Positions 395 to 8,827 of a stretch of DNA of 9,339 nt are shown one piece after another. Within the stretch, counting starts at the first letter, position 1. The number at the start of each line of letters is the position of its first letter. The notes below the pieces were generated by a model. That model was not told the DNA's origin and made no database searches. It saw only the letters and a list, made by a program, of their open reading frames with translations. Source of the DNA: Nitrospinota bacterium (GTDB lineage: Bacteria > Tectomicrobia > Entotheonellia > J063); the NCBI GenBank assembly GCA_003696125.1, contig RFHZ01000357.1, positions 1-9,339 of the forward strand, given 5' to 3'. Position numbers and translations under genes: made by a program.

Positions 395-1885
395 TTACCC
401 CCCTGCCGGTGGTGGCAGTTCGGCTACCAGGCGCAGGGAGACGGTGAGTTCGTCCAACTGGAAGTGGGGACGGAGAAAGGCGACTGCCCGGTACACACCC
501 GGTTTACCCGGGACTTCGGCCACGTCGATGCGGGCTTCCCGCAAGGGATAGCGTGCCTTCATCTCCTGTCCGGCATCATCGGAGCCGACCACGTAGTTGT
601 TGATCCAGCGATTGAGGAAGCTCTCACACTCGCTGCGGGACATGAAGCTACCGACCTTATCGCGCATGATCGCCTTGAGGTAGTGGGCAAAGCGTGAGGT
701 AGCCATGATGTACTGCAGTTGGGTGGAGAGACGGGCATTGGCGTTGGCCGCATCGGTATCGTATTTCTTCGGCTTCTGGCAGGTCTGGGTGCCGAAAAAG
801 GCGGCGTAATCGGTTCCCTTGCAATGCACCAGCGGGATGAATCCCAGATCGGAGAGCTCCTTTTCCCGACGATCGGTGATGGCGATCTCGGTGGGACACT
901 TGAGGGCCACATCCCCTTCATCGGTTCTGAAGGTGTGTGTGGGCAGGCCTTCGACCAGTCCTCCCCCTTCCACCCCGCGAATGGCCACACACCAGCCGTA
1001 CTTGGCAAAGGCATCGGTGAGACGGGTACCCAGGGCAAAAGCGGCATTGCCCCAGAGGTACTTGCTGTGATCGGTGCCATCCACATCCTCTTCAAAGTTG
1101 AACGCTTCTACCGGCACCGTCTCCTGTCCATACGGTAACCGCATCAGGATATGGGGCAAGGTCAGGGCCACATAGCGCGAATCTTCTGATTCACGGAACG
1201 ATTTCCACTTGGCATATTCGACCGAATCGAAGATCTTGGAGAGATCGCGGGGCACCCCCAGTTCGGTGAAGCTGTCCAGGTTAAAGAGTTGGGGGCTGGC
1301 AGCAGCGATAAAGGGGGCATGGGCGGCAGCAGCCACATGGGAGATCTTCTCCAGGAGGGCGATATCTTGCGGATGCCGTCCGAACTCGTAGTCCCCGATG
1401 AGGGCGGCATAGGGGGCTCCACCAAAGGTCCCATACTCCTCCTCATAGACCTTCTTAAACAGGGCACTCTGGTCGAACTCGGGCGCGCGCTCCAGGTCTT
1501 TGAGCAGGTCCTGCTTGGACACATTCAGGACCCGGATCTTGAGCATGGGACTGGTTTCGCTCTGGTGGACCAGGTAGTGGAGTCCCCGCCAGGTTGCCTC
1601 GAGCTTTTGAAATTCCGGGGCATGCATGATCTCGTTCAACTGCCGGGTCAACAGGGTATCGATCTCCGCGATCCGGGCATTGATGGTGCTCTCAATATCC
1701 TTGGAAACACGGACAACCCCTCTCATCACCTCTTCGACCAGGGTGGCAATCTGGCGGCGTGACTGTTCCCGCTGTTCCTCATCCCGGCCGATACGCCCCT
1801 CATCGATGATGGTCTCCAACAAACTTTTTTCCTGGGTTTCGGTAACCTCTTCGGGTTGTGCCTGTTCCATGCGTTCTTCACTCAT
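395..1885 (-). CDS. tssC: TssC (VipB/ImpC), T6SS sheath large subunit
   Basis: TssC and TssB form the contractile sheath around the Hcp tube. In studied systems the TssC N-terminal region is exposed on contraction and recognised by the ClpV unfoldase for recycling. The protein is 496 residues, normal for the family. Family-typical segments are IIDEGRIGRD (26-35), INARIAEIDTLL (68-79), EIMHAPEFQKLEATWRGL (85-102), LKIRVLNVSK (115-124), EFDQSALFKKVYEEEYGTFGG (136-156, continuing to the GDYEF motif near 165), and a C-terminal FQLDELTVSLRLVAELP. I chose ATG at 1885 over the longest frame (1915) because it follows GAGGAG by 7 nt and begins MSEERMEQ. The extra upstream residues (MRRHLQRRRP) lie wholly inside tssB and look non-family. 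The start overlaps the tssB stop by 8 nt (1878-1885), indicating translational coupling and balanced synthesis of the two sheath subunits. Confidence 0.97.
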   Translation of the reverse strand: MSEERMEQAQPEEVTETQEKSLLETIIDEGRIGRDEEQREQSRRQIATLVEEVMRGVVRVSKDIESTINARIAEIDTLLTRQLNEIMHAPEFQKLEATWRGLHYLVHQSETSPMLKIRVLNVSKQDLLKDLERAPEFDQSALFKKVYEEEYGTFGGAPYAALIGDYEFGRHPQDIALLEKISHVAAAAHAPFIAAASPQLFNLDSFTELGVPRDLSKIFDSVEYAKWKSFRESEDSRYVALTLPHILMRLPYGQETVPVEAFNFEEDVDGTDHSKYLWGNAAFALGTRLTDAFAKYGWCVAIRGVEGGGLVEGLPTHTFRTDEGDVALKCPTEIAITDRREKELSDLGFIPLVHCKGTDYAAFFGTQTCQKPKKYDTDAANANARLSTQLQYIMATSRFAHYLKAIMRDKVGSFMSRSECESFLNRWINNYVVGSDDAGQEMKARYPLREARIDVAEVPGKPGVYRAVAFLRPHFQLDELTVSLRLVAELPPPAGG

Positions 1886-2420
1886 TGGCCTTCTCCTCTG
1901 AAGATGTCTCCTCACCTTCGGGGTTAATCCCAGCTTCTTCGCTCAGTTTTTGCAATAATTCGGTATTGCTGATAATCTCCTGCAGGCGCTCGCTGAGCTG
2001 GTCATTTCCATCGGTCTTGGCCAGGAGAGAGGCGAGTTGCCGGCGTGTCTCCAGCAGCTTGCGAAGCGGTTCCACCTGTTGCACGATCCGTTCCGGTTCG
2101 AAATCCTCCATGCTATTGAAACGCAACTCTATCCCCAGCTTGGTATCGTCGTCGGTGAGCTTGTTGTCAACCCGGAAAGCCAGACGGGGTTTCATCCCTC
2201 GCAGGACCGAATTAAAGTTATCCCGATCGATCTCGACAAACTTGCGATCCTTGAGCCGGGGCAGGGGTTCATCCGGTTTGCCAGAAAGGTCGGCCAAAAC
2301 CCCCATGACAAAAGGGAGTTCCTTCATCTCGATCGCATCACCGATCTGCACATCATAGGTGATGTGCACACGGGGAGGACGAACCCGGTCGAGTTTATGT
2401 TGCGTACTTTCTCTAGCCAT
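1878..2420 (-). CDS. tssB: TssB (VipA/ImpB), T6SS sheath small subunit
   Basis: TssB is the small sheath subunit that interlocks with TssC in the cytoplasm to form the extended, contractible sheath. The predicted protein has 180 residues. It carries the family hallmarks KELPFVMGVLADLSG (33-47), KFVEIDRDNFNSVL (60-73), MKPRLAFRVDNKL (76-88), LGIELRFNSMEDFEPERI (95-112) and a helical C-terminal half (113-165), followed by an acidic tail. The start is ATG at 2420, preceded by AGGAGGG (2428-2434) at 7 nt. A GTG one codon upstream (2423) is less well spaced. The gene follows tssA after 27 nt and overlaps tssC by 8 nt. In systems with TagJ, the TssB N-terminal helix is the TagJ docking site, so the pairing with the upstream tagJ is functionally coherent. 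Confidence 0.97.
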   Translation of the reverse strand: MARESTQHKLDRVRPPRVHITYDVQIGDAIEMKELPFVMGVLADLSGKPDEPLPRLKDRKFVEIDRDNFNSVLRGMKPRLAFRVDNKLTDDDTKLGIELRFNSMEDFEPERIVQQVEPLRKLLETRRQLASLLAKTDGNDQLSERLQEIISNTELLQKLSEEAGINPEGEETSSEEKANE

Positions 2421-2447
2421 CACTTTTCCCTCCTATGTATATGACGC

Positions 2448-3569
2448 TCATGTATCACCCGTCTCGGTATCCTGCAACCCGAGAGTCTCACGCAAGTAGT
2501 TCAGTACACTCTCATCATGGATGACATCCTGCAACCACTGCTCCAGAGGCATCTCTCCCCACCGCACCGCTCGCTGTACCAGGTAAGAGACCGGGCTGTG
2601 CGGCTCGGTCCTGCGGAAATATTCGGCCACGGCCGCCAGCCGACGCAGGGCATCGGCCCGACTCTGCGGTTCCAGGGAGACCATCCCGGTCTGAGAAGGA
2701 GGAGAAGGCATGGGAGGCTGGGCAGTGACAACATCAGATCCCGGGGGCGACTCTGCCTCTGAAGGAGGCGGTTCAGCCGGCTGCTCCGGTTCCAGTCCCC
2801 CTTTCTTTTTGATAATGTCGGCAACCAGGGTATGATAATCTTCGATGGCCGCTTTGATCCCGGAGAGGCTGGGCGCATCTCGTCCGAACTTCTCCTCCAC
2901 CACCTGGTCAAGTCGTGCATACTCCTCTGCACTCTCCTGCAAATCGGCAAAGAGGGTCTGGTAAAAGGGGAGAGGCGTTGCATCCACCGCCTTATCAAAC
3001 TGCTCGCCACTGATCTTCCCCTCGGCCAGGGCGGCGGCCATGGCTTCCTGATCCCGACGCCCCAGGTTGTCCACCTCACGGGATTCCTTCCAGTGCAACC
3101 AGCTGTAATCATCCCCCCCCATCATCTGGGTGACCGGGATCTGCCGGATAGAGATGGGGAGCTTGTCGTTTAACCAGACGAGCGGTGCAGCCCGAAACTC
3201 CAGATCCTCCTCTTCCATCTCCGGGTACAGCGATTCCCAGAAACGTTCCTGGAGTTCCCAGAGGAGGTGGAGCCCATCCCGCAATCCCGGAATCCCATGC
3301 TGCTTGACCAGCGCTTCCACCAGCCAGGCGGCAATCTGCAGATCCTTACTCCTGGTAGCGAGTGCCTCCGTGGCTATCGCTATCACCGCCTGCCAGTCAG
3401 CGACCTTAACCTCCCGCACCCATTCTCCCTGGTCCAGGGCATCATCAGAACGACGCGCCTCCTGGATCTCATCGTAGGGACCGGCATAGCGAAGCAGCTC
3501 TCCACCAGGATTCTCTCCGGGAATAGGAGCAAGTAAGGCCTCAAAATCGAGAAGCGGTGGTGATCCCAT
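2448..3569 (-). CDS. tssA: TssA (ImpA family), T6SS cap/assembly protein
   Basis: TssA proteins act at the baseplate or at the distal end of the growing tail, where they prime or coordinate tube and sheath polymerisation. This 373-residue protein has an N-terminal ImpA_N domain: LLAPIPGENPGGELLRY (12-28), a conserved KVADWQAVIAIATEAL segment (55-70), the GLRDGLHLLWELQERFWESLYP region (95-116) and APLVWLNDKLPISIRQIPVT (128-147). A helical middle follows to about 255, then a proline-rich linker (260-295). The C-terminal segment is ADALRRLAAVAEYFRRTEPHSP (305-326) and SYLVQRAVRWGEMPLEQWL (328-346), the motif typical of the compact TssA class. It lacks the long C-terminal domain of dodecameric star-shaped TssA. 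ATG at 3569 is preferred over TTG at 3572, with AAGGGG just upstream. A run of eight G on the coding strand (plus 3113-3120) spans Met150-Gly-Gly-Asp and is a possible slippage site. Confidence 0.95.
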   Translation of the reverse strand: MGSPPLLDFEALLAPIPGENPGGELLRYAGPYDEIQEARRSDDALDQGEWVREVKVADWQAVIAIATEALATRSKDLQIAAWLVEALVKQHGIPGLRDGLHLLWELQERFWESLYPEMEEEDLEFRAAPLVWLNDKLPISIRQIPVTQMMGGDDYSWLHWKESREVDNLGRRDQEAMAAALAEGKISGEQFDKAVDATPLPFYQTLFADLQESAEEYARLDQVVEEKFGRDAPSLSGIKAAIEDYHTLVADIIKKKGGLEPEQPAEPPPSEAESPPGSDVVTAQPPMPSPPSQTGMVSLEPQSRADALRRLAAVAEYFRRTEPHSPVSYLVQRAVRWGEMPLEQWLQDVIHDESVLNYLRETLGLQDTETGDT

Positions 3570-3585
3570 CAATCCCCTTCCCCTT

Positions 3586-4380
3586 TCAGGTCACGGCTTC
3601 AAACTTGATTTCGCGTACTTCCAGCATGGCCCGGTCCTGGTCATCGATGAGGAATAACCTCTGCCCCACACCGAGGACCGGTCCCCCTTCCGTTACCTTC
3701 CAGTCGGTCATGCGGCCGAGCCGGACTCGATCGTCTGCATGATCGCATGAGCCGGCGTACAGGACGGGAAGGAACACCTCTCCGATCGGAGCAGGATGCG
3801 TTTCCAGCGTCGCCGGAATCCACAACAGGTCACGCAGGCGTTTGGGGGGAGAGATCTGTAGATGCTTGATCTGTTCAAAAGGCAGCCAGATATAGCGGTC
3901 ATGTACTATCACTTCGAGCAAAGGGGCCATCAGATCATCACCATCCCGGAAATCCTGGAAGGGGGTTCCGTCCACCTCCCCTCGCAAGGGGGGACGAGCC
4001 TGTTCTGCCTGGTCCAGTAACGCTTTGGCCTCTGCGGGTTGCTGCTCTCGTAAGCGATTGATCGCTGCGAGGTGTAAGGAGAGATAGGGAGGCGGGTCGA
4101 AGAGGAGGTGTGGCTGGAGTCCATCGGAAAACAGGCGGCGGCGGGCCTCTTCGGCCACGAGGATGTTGCGGTATACCTGGACACCCACAGCAGCACCGGT
4201 GCTCTGATGAGCAATGACCTCGAGATGACGGATGGCTCGCTGATACTCTCCGGCAAAACAGAGCAACTCAAACAGGAAGGTCCGCCTCTGCGTATCGGTC
4301 GGATGCGATTTCACCTCTCCTGTCAACTGCTCGATAGCCGCGGAGAGTTGTCCAGCATCAAGGAACTCTTTGGCTTTCAT
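3586..4380 (-). CDS. tagJ: TagJ / ImpE family T6SS accessory protein
   Basis: TagJ (HsiE1 in Pseudomonas aeruginosa; ImpE/SciE family) is a cytoplasmic accessory protein that binds the N-terminal helix of the TssB sheath subunit and assists sheath dynamics. The protein has 264 residues, the usual size. Residues 1-130 form a helical, TPR-like N-terminal half (AKEFLDAGQLSAAIEQLTGEV; ELLCFAGEYQRAIRHLEV). The diagnostic C-terminal half contains FQDFRDGDDLMAPLLEV (141-157), YIWLPFEQIKHL (163-174), PKRLRDLLWIPA (179-190), GEVFLPVLYAGS (200-211) and VRLGRMTDWK (219-228). ATG at 4380 is preceded by AAAGGA at 8 nt. A longer in-frame start at 4473 would add 31 residues that do not resemble the family, so I rejected it. 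It is the first gene of the operon. Its leader is about 160 nt and includes a small frame whose TGA overlaps this ATG. Confidence 0.93.
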   Translation of the reverse strand: MKAKEFLDAGQLSAAIEQLTGEVKSHPTDTQRRTFLFELLCFAGEYQRAIRHLEVIAHQSTGAAVGVQVYRNILVAEEARRRLFSDGLQPHLLFDPPPYLSLHLAAINRLREQQPAEAKALLDQAEQARPPLRGEVDGTPFQDFRDGDDLMAPLLEVIVHDRYIWLPFEQIKHLQISPPKRLRDLLWIPATLETHPAPIGEVFLPVLYAGSCDHADDRVRLGRMTDWKVTEGGPVLGVGQRLFLIDDQDRAMLEVREIKFEAVT

Positions 4381-4511: not shown

Positions 4512-4531
4512 GGGCATGGAAAACCATGCCC
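4512..4531. promoter_or_regulatory. Perfect inverted repeat at the 5' end of the predicted T6SS transcript
   Basis: The arms GGGCATGG (4512-4519) and CCATGCCC (4524-4531) are perfect 8-bp complements around AAAA. Relative to the predicted minus-strand start at about 4540 the element spans +10 to +29. It could be an operator for a dimeric repressor, or a 5' stem-loop (loop UUUU in the T6SS mRNA) that affects stability. On the plus strand it is followed by CCTTTT and resembles a terminator, but there is no plus-strand gene upstream to terminate. Confidence 0.5.
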
Positions 4532-4546: not shown

Positions 4547-4575
4547 ACTATACCATACCATAAAAGGAAAGTCAA
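4547..4575 (-). promoter_or_regulatory. Sigma70-type promoter of the T6SS operon
   Basis: On the minus strand, TTGACT (plus 4575-4570, 5 of 6 consensus positions) is followed after exactly 17 nt by TATAGT (plus 4552-4547, 5 of 6). The predicted start is an A at about 4540, giving a leader of about 160 nt to the tagJ ATG at 4380. No other comparably good -35/-10 pair was seen on this strand upstream of tagJ. The three CRP-type boxes lie 113 to 204 nt upstream, farther than usual for direct activation. If they act on this promoter it would be through looping or repression rather than class I/II contacts. Confidence 0.7.
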
Positions 4576-4645: not shown

Positions 4646-4661
4646 TGTGAGCTATATCACA
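4646..4661. promoter_or_regulatory. CRP-type box 1 (perfect TGTGA-N6-TCACA)
   Basis: TGTGA (4646-4650), spacer GCTATA, TCACA (4657-4661) match the CRP/Vfr half-site consensus at all 10 positions with the correct 6-nt spacer. The centre (4653.5) is about 113 nt upstream of the predicted T6SS operon start and about 132 nt upstream of the predicted ompA-like start. A separate 6-bp inverted repeat, CACCTG...CAGGTG (4660-4678), overlaps its right end. Confidence 0.65.
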
Positions 4662-4713
4662 CCTGTAACGAGCAGGTGGCAAAAAAGCAGAGGCCGAACC
4701 TGTGGACCCCACC

Positions 4714-4729
4714 TGTGAGCCGCCTCACA
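4714..4729. promoter_or_regulatory. CRP-type box 2 (perfect TGTGA-N6-TCACA)
   Basis: TGTGA (4714-4718), spacer GCCGCC, TCACA (4725-4729) match the consensus at all 10 half-site positions. The centre is 4721.5, which is 23 nt from box 3 and about -64.5 relative to the predicted rightward start. That is close to, but not exactly at, a classical class I position (-61.5). Confidence 0.65.
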
Positions 4730-4736
4730 TTCCGGT

Positions 4737-4752
4737 TGTGACGAATCGCACA
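4737..4752. promoter_or_regulatory. CRP-type box 3 (9 of 10), at the class II position
   Basis: TGTGA (4737-4741), spacer CGAATC, GCACA (4748-4752) match 9 of 10 half-site positions. The centre is 4744.5. The downstream TATACT hexamer at 4774-4779 puts the start at about 4786, and the box is then centred at -41.5. This is the class II geometry in which CRP overlaps and substitutes for a poor -35 element. No recognisable -35 hexamer is present at 4750-4757. Confidence 0.6.
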
Positions 4753-4786
4753 GCAGAGTTCCCCACCATCCTGTATACTGCTGCTC
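4737..4786 (+). promoter_or_regulatory. Candidate class II CRP-dependent promoter for the ompA-like gene
   Basis: TATACT (4774-4779) matches the -10 consensus at 5 of 6 positions. The -35 region is poor but is occupied by CRP-type box 3 centred at -41.5. The predicted start near 4786 gives a leader of about 140 nt to the ATG at 4926, and this leader includes the stem-loop at 4799-4839. Element positions are read directly; dependence on a CRP-family activator is inferred from geometry. Confidence 0.55.
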
Positions 4787-4798
4787 CAGAGAAAGAGA

Positions 4799-4839
4799 CC
4801 AGGAGTCAGGAAGGAGCGCAAAAGCTCCACTGACTCCGG
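4799..4839 (+). other. Strong stem-loop in the ompA-like leader (possible attenuator)
   Basis: GGAGTCAG (4802-4809) pairs with CTGACTCC (4830-4837), and inside it GGAGC (4813-4817) pairs with GCTCC (4824-4828) around GCAAAA. CC (4799-4800) can extend the stem with GG (4838-4839) past a bulged A. The stem is followed by a pyrimidine-rich GTTTCTCTCTT without an uninterrupted T run, so intrinsic termination would be weak. If transcription starts at about 4786, the structure forms immediately after initiation. It could be an attenuator, an mRNA-stabilising element or a block to upstream read-through. Confidence 0.5.
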
Positions 4840-4854
4840 CCAGCCGTTTCTCTC

Positions 4855-4881
4855 TTGACGAGAGGACGGCAATGAGATAAG
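4855..4881 (+). promoter_or_regulatory. Second possible promoter for the ompA-like gene
   Basis: TTGACG (4855-4860, 5 of 6 for -35) is followed by GATAAG (4876-4881) at 15 nt, or TAAGGT (4878-4883) at 17 nt. Neither -10 is strong. It lies downstream of the stem-loop and would give a short leader of about 35-40 nt. Confidence 0.3.
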
Positions 4882-4925
4882 GTAGCATCCAGAGACGGTA
4901 TATCCCAAAAGAGGAGGAGGGAACC

Positions 4926-5495
4926 ATGCGACGAGAGATCATCACCAGGATCGTAACCGTAGTCGGGATGATAGGGATTGTGCTCTTTCCCGTCATCCTC
5001 TCTGCCCAGGAACGGCATTTCACCGACTTCCGCGGGCAGGATTACACGGCGGAGGACCTCGGTGCCGCCCTTTTCCCAACAGGACCAGAGGTCGGTACCC
5101 GCGGTATCGCCCCCCAACAGGCTCCCCAGGCGTCGGTCCCCAAGGCTTCTGTGGCGCTGAACGTCTTCTTCGAGTTCAACTCGGATAAGGTGCTCCCGCA
5201 GTACTATCCTGACCTGGATAAGCTGGGCCAGGTGCTGACCAATCCGCGGTATGCCGACTACCGGGTGCAGATCGAAGGGCATACGGATAGCATCGGGTCT
5301 GACCGGTACAACCAGGCTCTTTCGGAAAGACGGGCCATGAGTGTGAAGCGGTACCTGATCCAGAACTTTCCCATCGATCCATCCCGCCTGGTGGTCAAGG
5401 GCTATGGAGAGAGGAGACCCATTGCCTCGAACGATACCCCGGAGGGGAGGAGCAGGAACCGGCGGGTTGAGGTGGTCAACCTGGGGAGAGAATAA
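4926..5495 (+). CDS. OmpA-C domain peptidoglycan-binding protein, exported
   Basis: This 189-residue protein has an N-terminal signal peptide (MRRE, a hydrophobic stretch 9-25, cleavage likely after LSA at 27). A short linker follows (about 28-75, including DYTAEDLGAALFP at 39-51), then a complete OmpA-C/MotB-type domain. The domain contains VFFEFNSDKVLP (80-91), IEGHTDSIGSDRYN (116-129), ALSERRAMSVKRYL (131-144), VVKGYGERRPIASN (156-169) and the closing SRNRRVEV (176-183). Asp121 and Arg136 are spaced 15 apart, like the diaminopimelate-contacting Asp271 and Arg286 of Escherichia coli OmpA. There is no lipobox cysteine and no beta-barrel, so it is a soluble periplasmic protein. Many T6SS clusters carry separate OmpA-like anchors (TagL, TagN, TagP), and its position divergent from tagJ suggests a similar role, but this is inference. 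A very strong Shine-Dalgarno, GGAGGAGG, precedes the ATG by about 5 nt. Confidence 0.88.
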   Translation: MRREIITRIVTVVGMIGIVLFPVILSAQERHFTDFRGQDYTAEDLGAALFPTGPEVGTRGIAPQQAPQASVPKASVALNVFFEFNSDKVLPQYYPDLDKLGQVLTNPRYADYRVQIEGHTDSIGSDRYNQALSERRAMSVKRYLIQNFPIDPSRLVVKGYGERRPIASNDTPEGRSRNRRVEVVNLGRE

Positions 5496-5520: not shown

Positions 5521-6672
5521 TTATTCGGTGACTCCAGCCTGCTTGAGGATCTCTACGATGTCCTGATGGCCCTCCTGCCGGGCAATGGTGAGCGCGGTAC
5601 GCCCCTGCCGATCACGCAGGGAGGCATCGGCACCATTTTCCAGCAGGGTCCTCACCACAGGGGCATGCCCGGCATTGGCCGCGATCATCAACGCGGTCCA
5701 CCCGCTCTTGTGCTGGGCATTGATGGCAGCACCGTGCCTTAACAGAGCCTGTACCACATCGGCATGACCGTTGGCTGCTGCCAGCATCAAGACGGTAAAC
5801 CCACTCCGGTCCTGAGCATTGACATCTGCTCCCCGGGCCAGCAAGGTCTCGACCGTGTCGCGGTGTCCCTGTCCGGCTGCCCACATGAGCGCGGTGTTGC
5901 CGCTACTCTTGTGCCGCACATGAAGATCGGCGCCATGGTCCAGCAAGGCCTGGACCATGGCGGTGTGACCATGAGCGGCTGCCCGCATCAGAGGGGTCAT
6001 CCCCTGCTTATCCCTGACGCTCAGGTCGGCGCCGTAAGTCAGCAGCACCTTGACCACCGGCGTATGCCCCTGCTCCACCGCCAGCAGCAGCGGCGTGGCC
6101 CCGGTGTTGTCCACACGATTGACCGCAGCCCCCTGGGCCAGCAAGGCCTCGACAACGGCCGCATGCCCGTTGAGTGCCGCCAGGTGCAGGGCGGTGCGTC
6201 CCTGTTCCGCCTCTCGCTCCTCTACCTCGGCTCCCCGGCTCAGCAGGGCCTGGACCATGGAGGTATAGCCACGTGCCGCTGCCAGTAACAGAGGAGTCCT
6301 CCCCTTGTTGTCCTTGATGTTCACATCGGCACCATGGGCTAAAAGCAGCGTGACCGTATCGGTATGGCCATTGGTGATGGCCAGATGCAGGGCAGTTCTC
6401 CCCTGCTTGGGTTCCTGCACATGTACATCAGCCCCGCTGGCCAGCAGGACCCGGACCAGTTCGGTTTTTCCCTCTTCTGCGGCGAGCATCAAGGCGGTAA
6501 AACCTCTTGCATCGGTCTCGTTGATATCTGCTCCCTTCTCCAGCACGGCCTTGATGTCACCGACCTGGCCTTTCAGGGCCACCGGGAGGAAAGGAGGGGG
6601 TTTCTGGGCACAGGCGACGAGGAGCAAGGACAGGCTAAGCAGAGGTACCATTCTCCATCTTACGCGTGACAT
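5521..6672 (-). CDS. Ankyrin-repeat lipoprotein
   Basis: This 383-residue protein starts with a lipoprotein signal: Arg-rich MSRVRWR, a leucine-rich core (11-18) and the lipobox L18-V19-A20-C21. It is therefore predicted to be membrane-tethered and facing the periplasm. Residues from about 31 to the end are ankyrin repeats: a degenerate N-cap, nine full 33-34-residue repeats of the G-x-T-x-L-x-x-A-x-x-x-G-H type, and a C-cap ending IVEILKQAGVTE. The third and fourth units (GRTALHLA..., GRTPLLLA...) are echoed by the next two, so a two-repeat block seems to have been duplicated. The start at 6672 has GGAGGAGG just upstream. Ankyrin proteins bind other proteins. Near T6SS genes, some ankyrin lipoproteins act as immunity proteins or partners of lipase effectors, but no effector gene is visible here, so the partner is unknown. 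There is no sign of truncation. Confidence 0.9.
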   Translation of the reverse strand: MSRVRWRMVPLLSLSLLLVACAQKPPPFLPVALKGQVGDIKAVLEKGADINETDARGFTALMLAAEEGKTELVRVLLASGADVHVQEPKQGRTALHLAITNGHTDTVTLLLAHGADVNIKDNKGRTPLLLAAARGYTSMVQALLSRGAEVEEREAEQGRTALHLAALNGHAAVVEALLAQGAAVNRVDNTGATPLLLAVEQGHTPVVKVLLTYGADLSVRDKQGMTPLMRAAAHGHTAMVQALLDHGADLHVRHKSSGNTALMWAAGQGHRDTVETLLARGADVNAQDRSGFTVLMLAAANGHADVVQALLRHGAAINAQHKSGWTALMIAANAGHAPVVRTLLENGADASLRDRQGRTALTIARQEGHQDIVEILKQAGVTE

Positions 6673-6866: not shown

Positions 6867-6898
6867 ATACAGTAAAGATAAGTTTGAGGAAGCTGCCT

Positions 6899-8827
6899 AT
6901 GAGAACGCTCTTTTTTATCGTCTGTATGACTCTCCTGCTGCCGTATTTCTCTCTGGCAGCAGGGACACCGGTAGAGGCTGATCTCCATGCGAATCTCGGG
7001 ATAAACTATTTCCAGCGCGGAGAGTACGAAGCAGCCGCAGCCGAGTTCCAGCAGGCCCTCCAGCTCAATCCCCAGCTCAAGGGGTTACACGGATTCCTGG
7101 GGCTTGCCTGGTATCACCTGCAGCGCTACGATGCCGCACTCAAGGCCTTGCAGGACGCGGTAGATCTCGATCCGGATACGGCAGAAAATCACTACAACCT
7201 GGGCCTGGTCTACGTGCAAAAGGGGATGCGGGATGAAGCCATCCAGGCCTTGGAGCAAGCGGTAGGACTCTCCTCCTCCCTTGCCCAGGCGCATAGCCTG
7301 CTCGGCTACCTCTACAGCGAGCAGAAAAGTTACGACCAGGCCATTCAACACTATCAGCAGGCGATAGCCCTCGGCCTGAAAGCAGCAGAGGATTTCTATA
7401 ATCTCGGGTTGGCCTACTACAACACCAACCGGATAGAGGACGCGATCGCCGCCTACCAGCAGGCCATAACCCTGAAGGAGGATTTTCCAGAGGCCTATAG
7501 CGCCCTGGGAGCAGCCTATCAGAGGAAAGGATCGCCGCAAGAGGCCATAACCATGTACCGGCAGGCGATCACCCTTGATCCCAAGGCGGTAGAGGGCCAT
7601 TATCAACTCGGTACCATCTATCAACAACAGGGAAAACTGGAGCAGGCTATCACCGAGTATCAACGAGTGATCCAGCTTGATCCTCAACATGCTCTTGCCC
7701 ATACCGGGTTGGGGACGGTCTATTTCCAGCAGGGGTTGTACGATGAGGCGATCCTGGCCTATCAAAAGGCGCTGGCCATCCAACCCGGCCTGGCAGAAGC
7801 CCGGATCAACCTCGGTATTGTGCTCCAAAGAAAGGGGTTAGCAGACCAGGCATTGGCCCAACTCCAAAGCGCCGCACAAACGGCGGATATCCCGCTCCTC
7901 CACTATAACCTCGCCACCCTCTATCAAAGCCAGGAACGCTATGAGCAGGCCATCGCCGCCTATCGAAAAGCCCTGGCCCTCGATCCCCGCCTGGCCGAAG
8001 CCTACTATAACCTCGGGGTCATCTACGATGCCCAGGCCCTCCCTGACCAGGCAATAGCGAACTACCAGAAGGCCATCGAGATCAAGCCCGACTTTGTCGA
8101 TGCTTACTACAATCTGGGGATGGCATACCAGCGTTTAGGCCTGGATGAAAAAGCGATCACCACCCTGGAAAAAGCGGTACAGATCAAACCCGATTTTGCC
8201 CAGGGACTCTTTACCCTGGGGGTGTTGTACGGGCAGCGAGGAGCGCCCGAGCAAGCCATAGCCAGGTACAAGGCGGCGTTGCAGGCGAACCCTGACCAGG
8301 CAGAAACGCATAACAACCTGGGGGTCCTCTACGAAAAACAGCAACAGTACGATCAGGCCATCGCCGAGTACCAGGCAGCCCTCAAGAGCAACCCGAACTA
8401 TGCCCAGGCTCACTACAACCTGGGGGGGGCATATGAAGCGAAAGGACTCTATGATCAGGCCATTGCCGAGTACCAGGCAGCCCTCGCTCTCCAACCCGAC
8501 TATGTAAATGCCTATGCCAGGCTGGGATGGCTCTACGAACAGCAGGGGCAGTACGACCAGGCTATTCAGGCCTATATGCACTCCCTGCAACTCAAGCCGG
8601 AAAACTGGGAGGTCCAGAATAATCTCGGTGTGGTCTATTACAAGCAAGAGCGCTATGACCAGGCCATCACCTCCTTTCAGGAGGCGATTCGTTTAAAACC
8701 AGACTTTGCCGAAGCCTATTATAACCTGGGGAACGCCTATACCCAGAGTGCGCAACCCGAAAAGGCGATTGAGGCGTATAAGCAGTATGAGAAACTTCAC
8801 CAGACGCAGCAGAGAACAGGCCAGTGA
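6899..8827 (+). CDS. Exported protein of 18 tandem TPRs
   Basis: This 642-residue protein has a signal peptide (MRTLFF, a hydrophobic core to about 19, probable cleavage near SLAA at 18-21) followed by 18 tetratricopeptide repeats that fill the rest. Each is 34 residues except the ninth, which is 33. The consensus is A-x-A-x-Y-N-L-G-x-x-Y-x-x-x-G-x-x-x-x-A-I-x-x-Y-x-x-A-L-x-L-x-P. There is no other domain and only a short polar tail (QTQQRTGQ). Such an array forms a long superhelical scaffold that binds peptides or proteins, here in the periplasm or at the surface. I chose ATG at 6899 over TTG at 6884 because GAGGA lies 8 nt before the ATG and the signal peptide then starts at Met. Its 3' end overlaps the next gene, so the two probably work together. 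A run of eight G lies at 8422-8429. The name of the pathway cannot be read from the sequence. Confidence 0.9.
   Translation: MRTLFFIVCMTLLLPYFSLAAGTPVEADLHANLGINYFQRGEYEAAAAEFQQALQLNPQLKGLHGFLGLAWYHLQRYDAALKALQDAVDLDPDTAENHYNLGLVYVQKGMRDEAIQALEQAVGLSSSLAQAHSLLGYLYSEQKSYDQAIQHYQQAIALGLKAAEDFYNLGLAYYNTNRIEDAIAAYQQAITLKEDFPEAYSALGAAYQRKGSPQEAITMYRQAITLDPKAVEGHYQLGTIYQQQGKLEQAITEYQRVIQLDPQHALAHTGLGTVYFQQGLYDEAILAYQKALAIQPGLAEARINLGIVLQRKGLADQALAQLQSAAQTADIPLLHYNLATLYQSQERYEQAIAAYRKALALDPRLAEAYYNLGVIYDAQALPDQAIANYQKAIEIKPDFVDAYYNLGMAYQRLGLDEKAITTLEKAVQIKPDFAQGLFTLGVLYGQRGAPEQAIARYKAALQANPDQAETHNNLGVLYEKQQQYDQAIAEYQAALKSNPNYAQAHYNLGGAYEAKGLYDQAIAEYQAALALQPDYVNAYARLGWLYEQQGQYDQAIQAYMHSLQLKPENWEVQNNLGVVYYKQERYDQAITSFQEAIRLKPDFAEAYYNLGNAYTQSAQPEKAIEAYKQYEKLHQTQQRTGQ
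8351..8485 (+). repeat. 33-bp near-identical direct repeat between TPR 14 and TPR 15
   Basis: The 33 bases at 8351-8383 recur at 8453-8485 with a single C/T difference, spaced exactly 102 bp (34 codons) apart. Both encode the helix DQAIAEYQAAL. Most neighbouring TPRs are similar only at protein level, so this pair points to a recent internal duplication or gene conversion and offers a substrate for slipped-strand repeat loss or gain. Confidence 0.75.

Follow-up and report, generated by a model that had tools for sequence, protein, structure and literature searches.

Genes and CRP boxes of the divergent region

The window, the whole stretch of 9,339 nucleotides analysed here, comes from a Nitrospinota bacterium. 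It contains T6SS genes on the minus strand and an ompA-like gene on the plus strand, which diverge from a 545-bp gap between the ATG of impE (4380) and that of the ompA-like gene (4926). All three CRP boxes are found in this gap. The features are the following:

395-1915, minus strand: tssC, large sheath protein (TIGR03355)
1878-2423, minus strand: tssB, small sheath protein (TIGR03358)
2448-3572, minus strand: tssA (TIGR03363)
3586-4380, minus strand: impE/tagJ-like gene, first of the T6SS operon (Pfam PF07024), putative ATG 4380 with a Shine-Dalgarno sequence
4512-4531: perfect 8-bp inverted repeat, GGGCATGG-AAAA-CCATGCCC, closely following the predicted T6SS start (at most 30 bp)
4547-4575, minus strand: predicted sigma-70 type promoter toward the T6SS operon, TTGACT-17-TATAGT with TG before the -10, start about 4540
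4646-4661: CRP box 1, TGTGAGCTATATCACA, 0 mismatches, centre 4653.5
4714-4729: CRP box 2, TGTGAGCCGCCTCACA, 0 mismatches
4737-4752: CRP box 3, TGTGACGAATCGCACA, 1 mismatch (9/10), in class II position 21 bp before TATACT
4774-4779, plus strand: -10 hexamer TATACT of the ompA-like promoter, without a -35
4786-4925, plus strand: predicted 5' leader of the ompA-like mRNA, with two strong hairpins
4926-5495, plus strand: ompA-like gene, with a C-terminal OmpA domain (Pfam PF00691) and a signal peptide recognized by eye

No lipobox cysteine is seen in the ompA-like protein. Folding of the predicted leader is much stronger than that of shuffled sequence (z = -3.7). Its hairpins suggested a riboswitch by eye, a candidate that was rejected, as an Rfam scan of the leader gave no family. 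An ankyrin-repeat lipoprotein-like gene (5521-6672) and a gene for a long TPR protein (6884-8827) adjoin the ompA-like gene. On the T6SS side, the inverted repeat may serve as an operator or, for the plus strand, as a weak terminator.

The original prediction described three sites, hard to attribute to chance: Two match TGTGA-N6-TCACA perfectly and the third at 9/10 positions. The three sites are indeed present, and both simulations and genome-wide counts bear out their rarity. Only six perfect sites are found in the whole 4.18-Mb assembly by pattern search, and two of them are those in the gap, 68 bp apart. When one mismatch is allowed, the count by the same kind of search rises to 39 sites assembly-wide, while the reversed control pattern gives 22, none of them perfect. 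Among 200,000 Markov-1 simulations of the gap, one perfect site appears in 0.05%; neither two perfect sites nor three sites with at most one mismatch appear in any. TGTGA-type palindromes do arise by chance: most one-mismatch sites elsewhere in the genome fall within ORFs, and these are probably chance matches. Nevertheless, we can give hardly any credence to the boxes being chance matches or members of a repeat family. Two of the six perfect sites in the genome lie within 68 bp, the geometry is conserved, and the boxes are not a dispersed repeat. At the level of sequence statistics, a chance origin is refuted.

The proposed promoter of the ompA-like gene

The position where a -35 hexamer should precede TATACT (4751-4756) reads CAGCAG instead of TTGACA, as originally claimed, and the plus strand has no sigma-70 match. 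Box 3 had been placed at exactly -41.5, the class II position. Its class II geometry holds within 2-3 bp, but the word exact does not, since the start at C4786 is an assumption. C4786 is a pyrimidine, not a purine, so the value of -41.5 is good only to about 3 bp. The nearest purines, G4783 and A4788, place the centre of box 3 at about -38.5 to -43.5. Counting from this predicted start (+/-3 bp), box 2 is found at about -64.5 and box 1 at about -132.5. Box 2 lies 23 bp upstream of box 3, on nearly the same face of the DNA.

We have found only one orthologue of the ompA-like gene in the phylum. It has 48% identity and belongs to a genome (G004) from another family of the same class. Upstream of it there is a single CRP box (9/10), TGTGATACACATCACT, located 22 bp before an identical TATACT, compared with 21 bp in the window; the -10 region common to both is CATCCTG..TATACTGC. 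The probability of finding a box at this spacing by chance is about 3e-4. Comparison with related genomes had been proposed as a check, and the arrangement of box 3 is kept in the one orthologue available. The leader of the G004 gene shows no folding excess like that in the window (z = -1.1).

The surroundings of the two genes are different. The G004 orthologue (in L062:3390-7615) is flanked by a BON/DUF4384 gene and by a CHAT/TPR gene; the latter, not a T6SS gene, is its divergent neighbour. The T6SS of this genome is found elsewhere, and the 19.9 kb of its region that were scanned contain neither a perfect box nor one with a single mismatch. The box thus travels with the ompA-like gene, not with the T6SS.

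The same geometry, a box followed by a -10-like hexamer, is also found ahead of four other genes in the genome which contains the window:

Sugar transferase, bacterial, exopolysaccharide-type: box with TTTACT 21 bp downstream
Nitronate-monooxygenase-type gene: box with TTTACT 22 bp downstream
Sigma-54 response regulator: box with TATCTT 21 bp downstream
ORF without a Pfam match: box with TATAGT 23 bp downstream

A fifth box, with TAGAGT at 21 bp, is weaker. The profile of -10 scores over offsets 4-49 peaks at offsets 21-23 for the 11 noncoding boxes, classified by hand, which comprise ten from this genome and the one from G004. Four of these 11 lack a -10-like hexamer. When gaps from 10 to 36 bp were scanned, there were two matches, one at 22 bp and the other at 21 bp; the reversed control gave none.

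We consider it quite likely that the gap holds a CRP-dependent class II promoter which drives the ompA-like gene. According to this model, cAMP-bound CRP would occupy box 3, substituting for the absent -35 element, and would recruit RNA polymerase to TATACT, so that the ompA-like protein would be made once cyclase activity raises cAMP. A second CRP on box 2 would probably alter the cAMP threshold or the strength of the promoter. Box 1 may influence either promoter or serve as an additional anchor. The mechanism is an ordinary one, with no departure from known class II CRP promoters.

We infer activation rather than repression. CRP might instead be mainly a repressor: Boxes 2 and 3 would block the polymerase, or CRP on box 1 would limit the T6SS promoter. 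Boxes that stand side by side in tandem can cause repression or accommodate a co-repressor, for instance CytR (PMC4581735). This is improbable, as the ompA-like promoter lacks a -35, which is expected if it is activated, and box 3 sits in an activating position and is the only one conserved in G004.

The candidate regulator and the cyclases

A CRP-type DNA-binding domain (HTH_Crp) occurs in two proteins of the genome, C687 and C746. The C687 protein matches PDB structures of CRP from Mycobacterium tuberculosis, E. coli and others. A crp homologue with the consensus recognition helix had been proposed as a check, and C687 has it: Its helix SRETVTR (SRETV-x-R) keeps R180, E181 and R185 of E. coli CRP. 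In the same alignment, four of the five residues of the cAMP pocket are also kept (E72, R82, S83 and T127), while S128 is Asp, so the ligand of C687 could differ. The protein scores below the NCBIfam cut-off for the CRP equivalog (139 vs 266 bits). These conserved residues suggest that C687 is a CRP able to read TGTGA. Its gene lies on a different contig from the boxes, with matching composition, in an assembly of 990 contigs with about 8% contamination. No box was noticed by eye in the upstream regions of the crp genes, where autoregulation would suppose one.

Another protein of the CRP/FNR family could bind the boxes, for example the FNR/FtrB-like C746, the one HTH_Crp protein found in the genome besides C687. 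We regard this as very unlikely. The helix of C746, APETFSRIL, lacks R180 and resembles the E-x-x-S-R helices of FNR type which read TTGAT; the CRP helix belongs to C687.

Class III cyclase domains are abundant, with 14 in this genome. Full-length CRP of the C687 type is found in three of the five genomes compared (G000, which contains the window, G003 and G004), the counts of cyclase domains in these three being 14, 15 and 17. In the two others, G001 and G002, no CRP match was found and there is one cyclase domain each. This co-occurrence among five genomes, where two of the CRP-bearing ones share a family, is consistent with cAMP signalling. The proposed control of the ompA-like gene by a CRP-type regulator through box 3 in class II geometry is supported by the conservation in the orthologue, the genomic boxes with the same geometry, the matching CRP and the many cyclases.

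The T6SS operon and comparison with known systems

The same support does not extend to the T6SS operon, for which CRP control had also been suggested. This operon has a near-consensus promoter of its own, and CRP boxes are absent from the standard positions: The nearest, box 1, is centred at about -113.5 when counted from the predicted T6SS start, and no CRP site is found at an activating position. The suggested link between secretion and metabolic state is thus not supported either. T6SS control by CRP is possible, but not supported.

The T6SS regions of two relatives were seen: The one scanned has no boxes, and the other lacks a divergent ompA gene. A search with the ImpE protein for orthologous divergent regions gave only an Acidobacteria locus, where impE is within the T6SS operon and no ompA gene diverges from it. 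The T6SS operon of G004 begins with a gene for a periplasmic OmpA-like paralogue (L096:14913-15536, 35% identity), which suggests that this OmpA subfamily may be functionally tied to the T6SS.

Could secretion and the ompA-like gene be co-regulated, with the same CRP acting from box 1 on the divergent T6SS operon as well? Box 1 is perfect, -113.5 is near whole helical turns from -61.5, both genes have one control region in common, and the G004 paralogue heads a T6SS operon. On the other hand, with its good -35 and -10 hexamers the T6SS promoter can do without an activator, -113.5 lies beyond the usual class I positions, and the 19.9-kb T6SS region of G004 is devoid of boxes with one mismatch or none. 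We find this co-regulation doubtful. A broader scheme is more speculative still, and we consider it unlikely: Three CRP dimers would form a cAMP-sensitive switch that puts the ompA-like envelope protein and the T6SS either into the same state or into opposite ones, and the members of this lineage rich in class III cyclases would also retain a CRP-type regulator in charge of envelope and surface-sugar genes.

E. coli ompA is influenced by CRP and has a structured 5' leader. The gene in the window resembles it in coding for an OmpA-domain protein, with a CRP box upstream and a long hairpin-rich leader, but it is not an orthologue: There is no beta-barrel, only the periplasmic OmpA_C domain. Class II CRP promoters are well known; an example worked out recently is the promoter of mchA in enteroaggregative E. 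coli (PMC12360894). In this promoter and in the synthetic CC(-41.5), as in the window, the CRP box overlaps an absent -35, a TATA-type -10 is located about 21-22 bp past the box, and the CRP recognition residues are the same. The differences are that our predicted promoter belongs to another lineage, has two extra perfect boxes upstream and would have a regulator with Asp in place of S128. Regulation of the T6SS linked to CRP or Vfr is found in Vibrio and Pseudomonas, also with CRP-type boxes near T6SS genes; in V. cholerae, CytR and TfoX input reaches the T6SS through QstR (PMC4581735). Here, unlike those cases, the gene with the box is ompA-like, and the relative which was scanned, G004, has no box at its T6SS. 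Control of a T6SS should not be read from boxes that are owned by the opposite gene of a divergent region.

In summary, the regulatory site is, as judged from its letters, real and well placed, in a poorly known lineage, and for box 3 the class II reading has good support. It provides evidence at the sequence level that a little-sampled phylum, where five genomes were compared, uses class II geometry and a CRP code of the E. coli type. The ompA-like gene, the exopolysaccharide-type sugar transferase, the sigma-54 response regulator and the nitronate-monooxygenase-type gene are candidates for the first members of the regulon.
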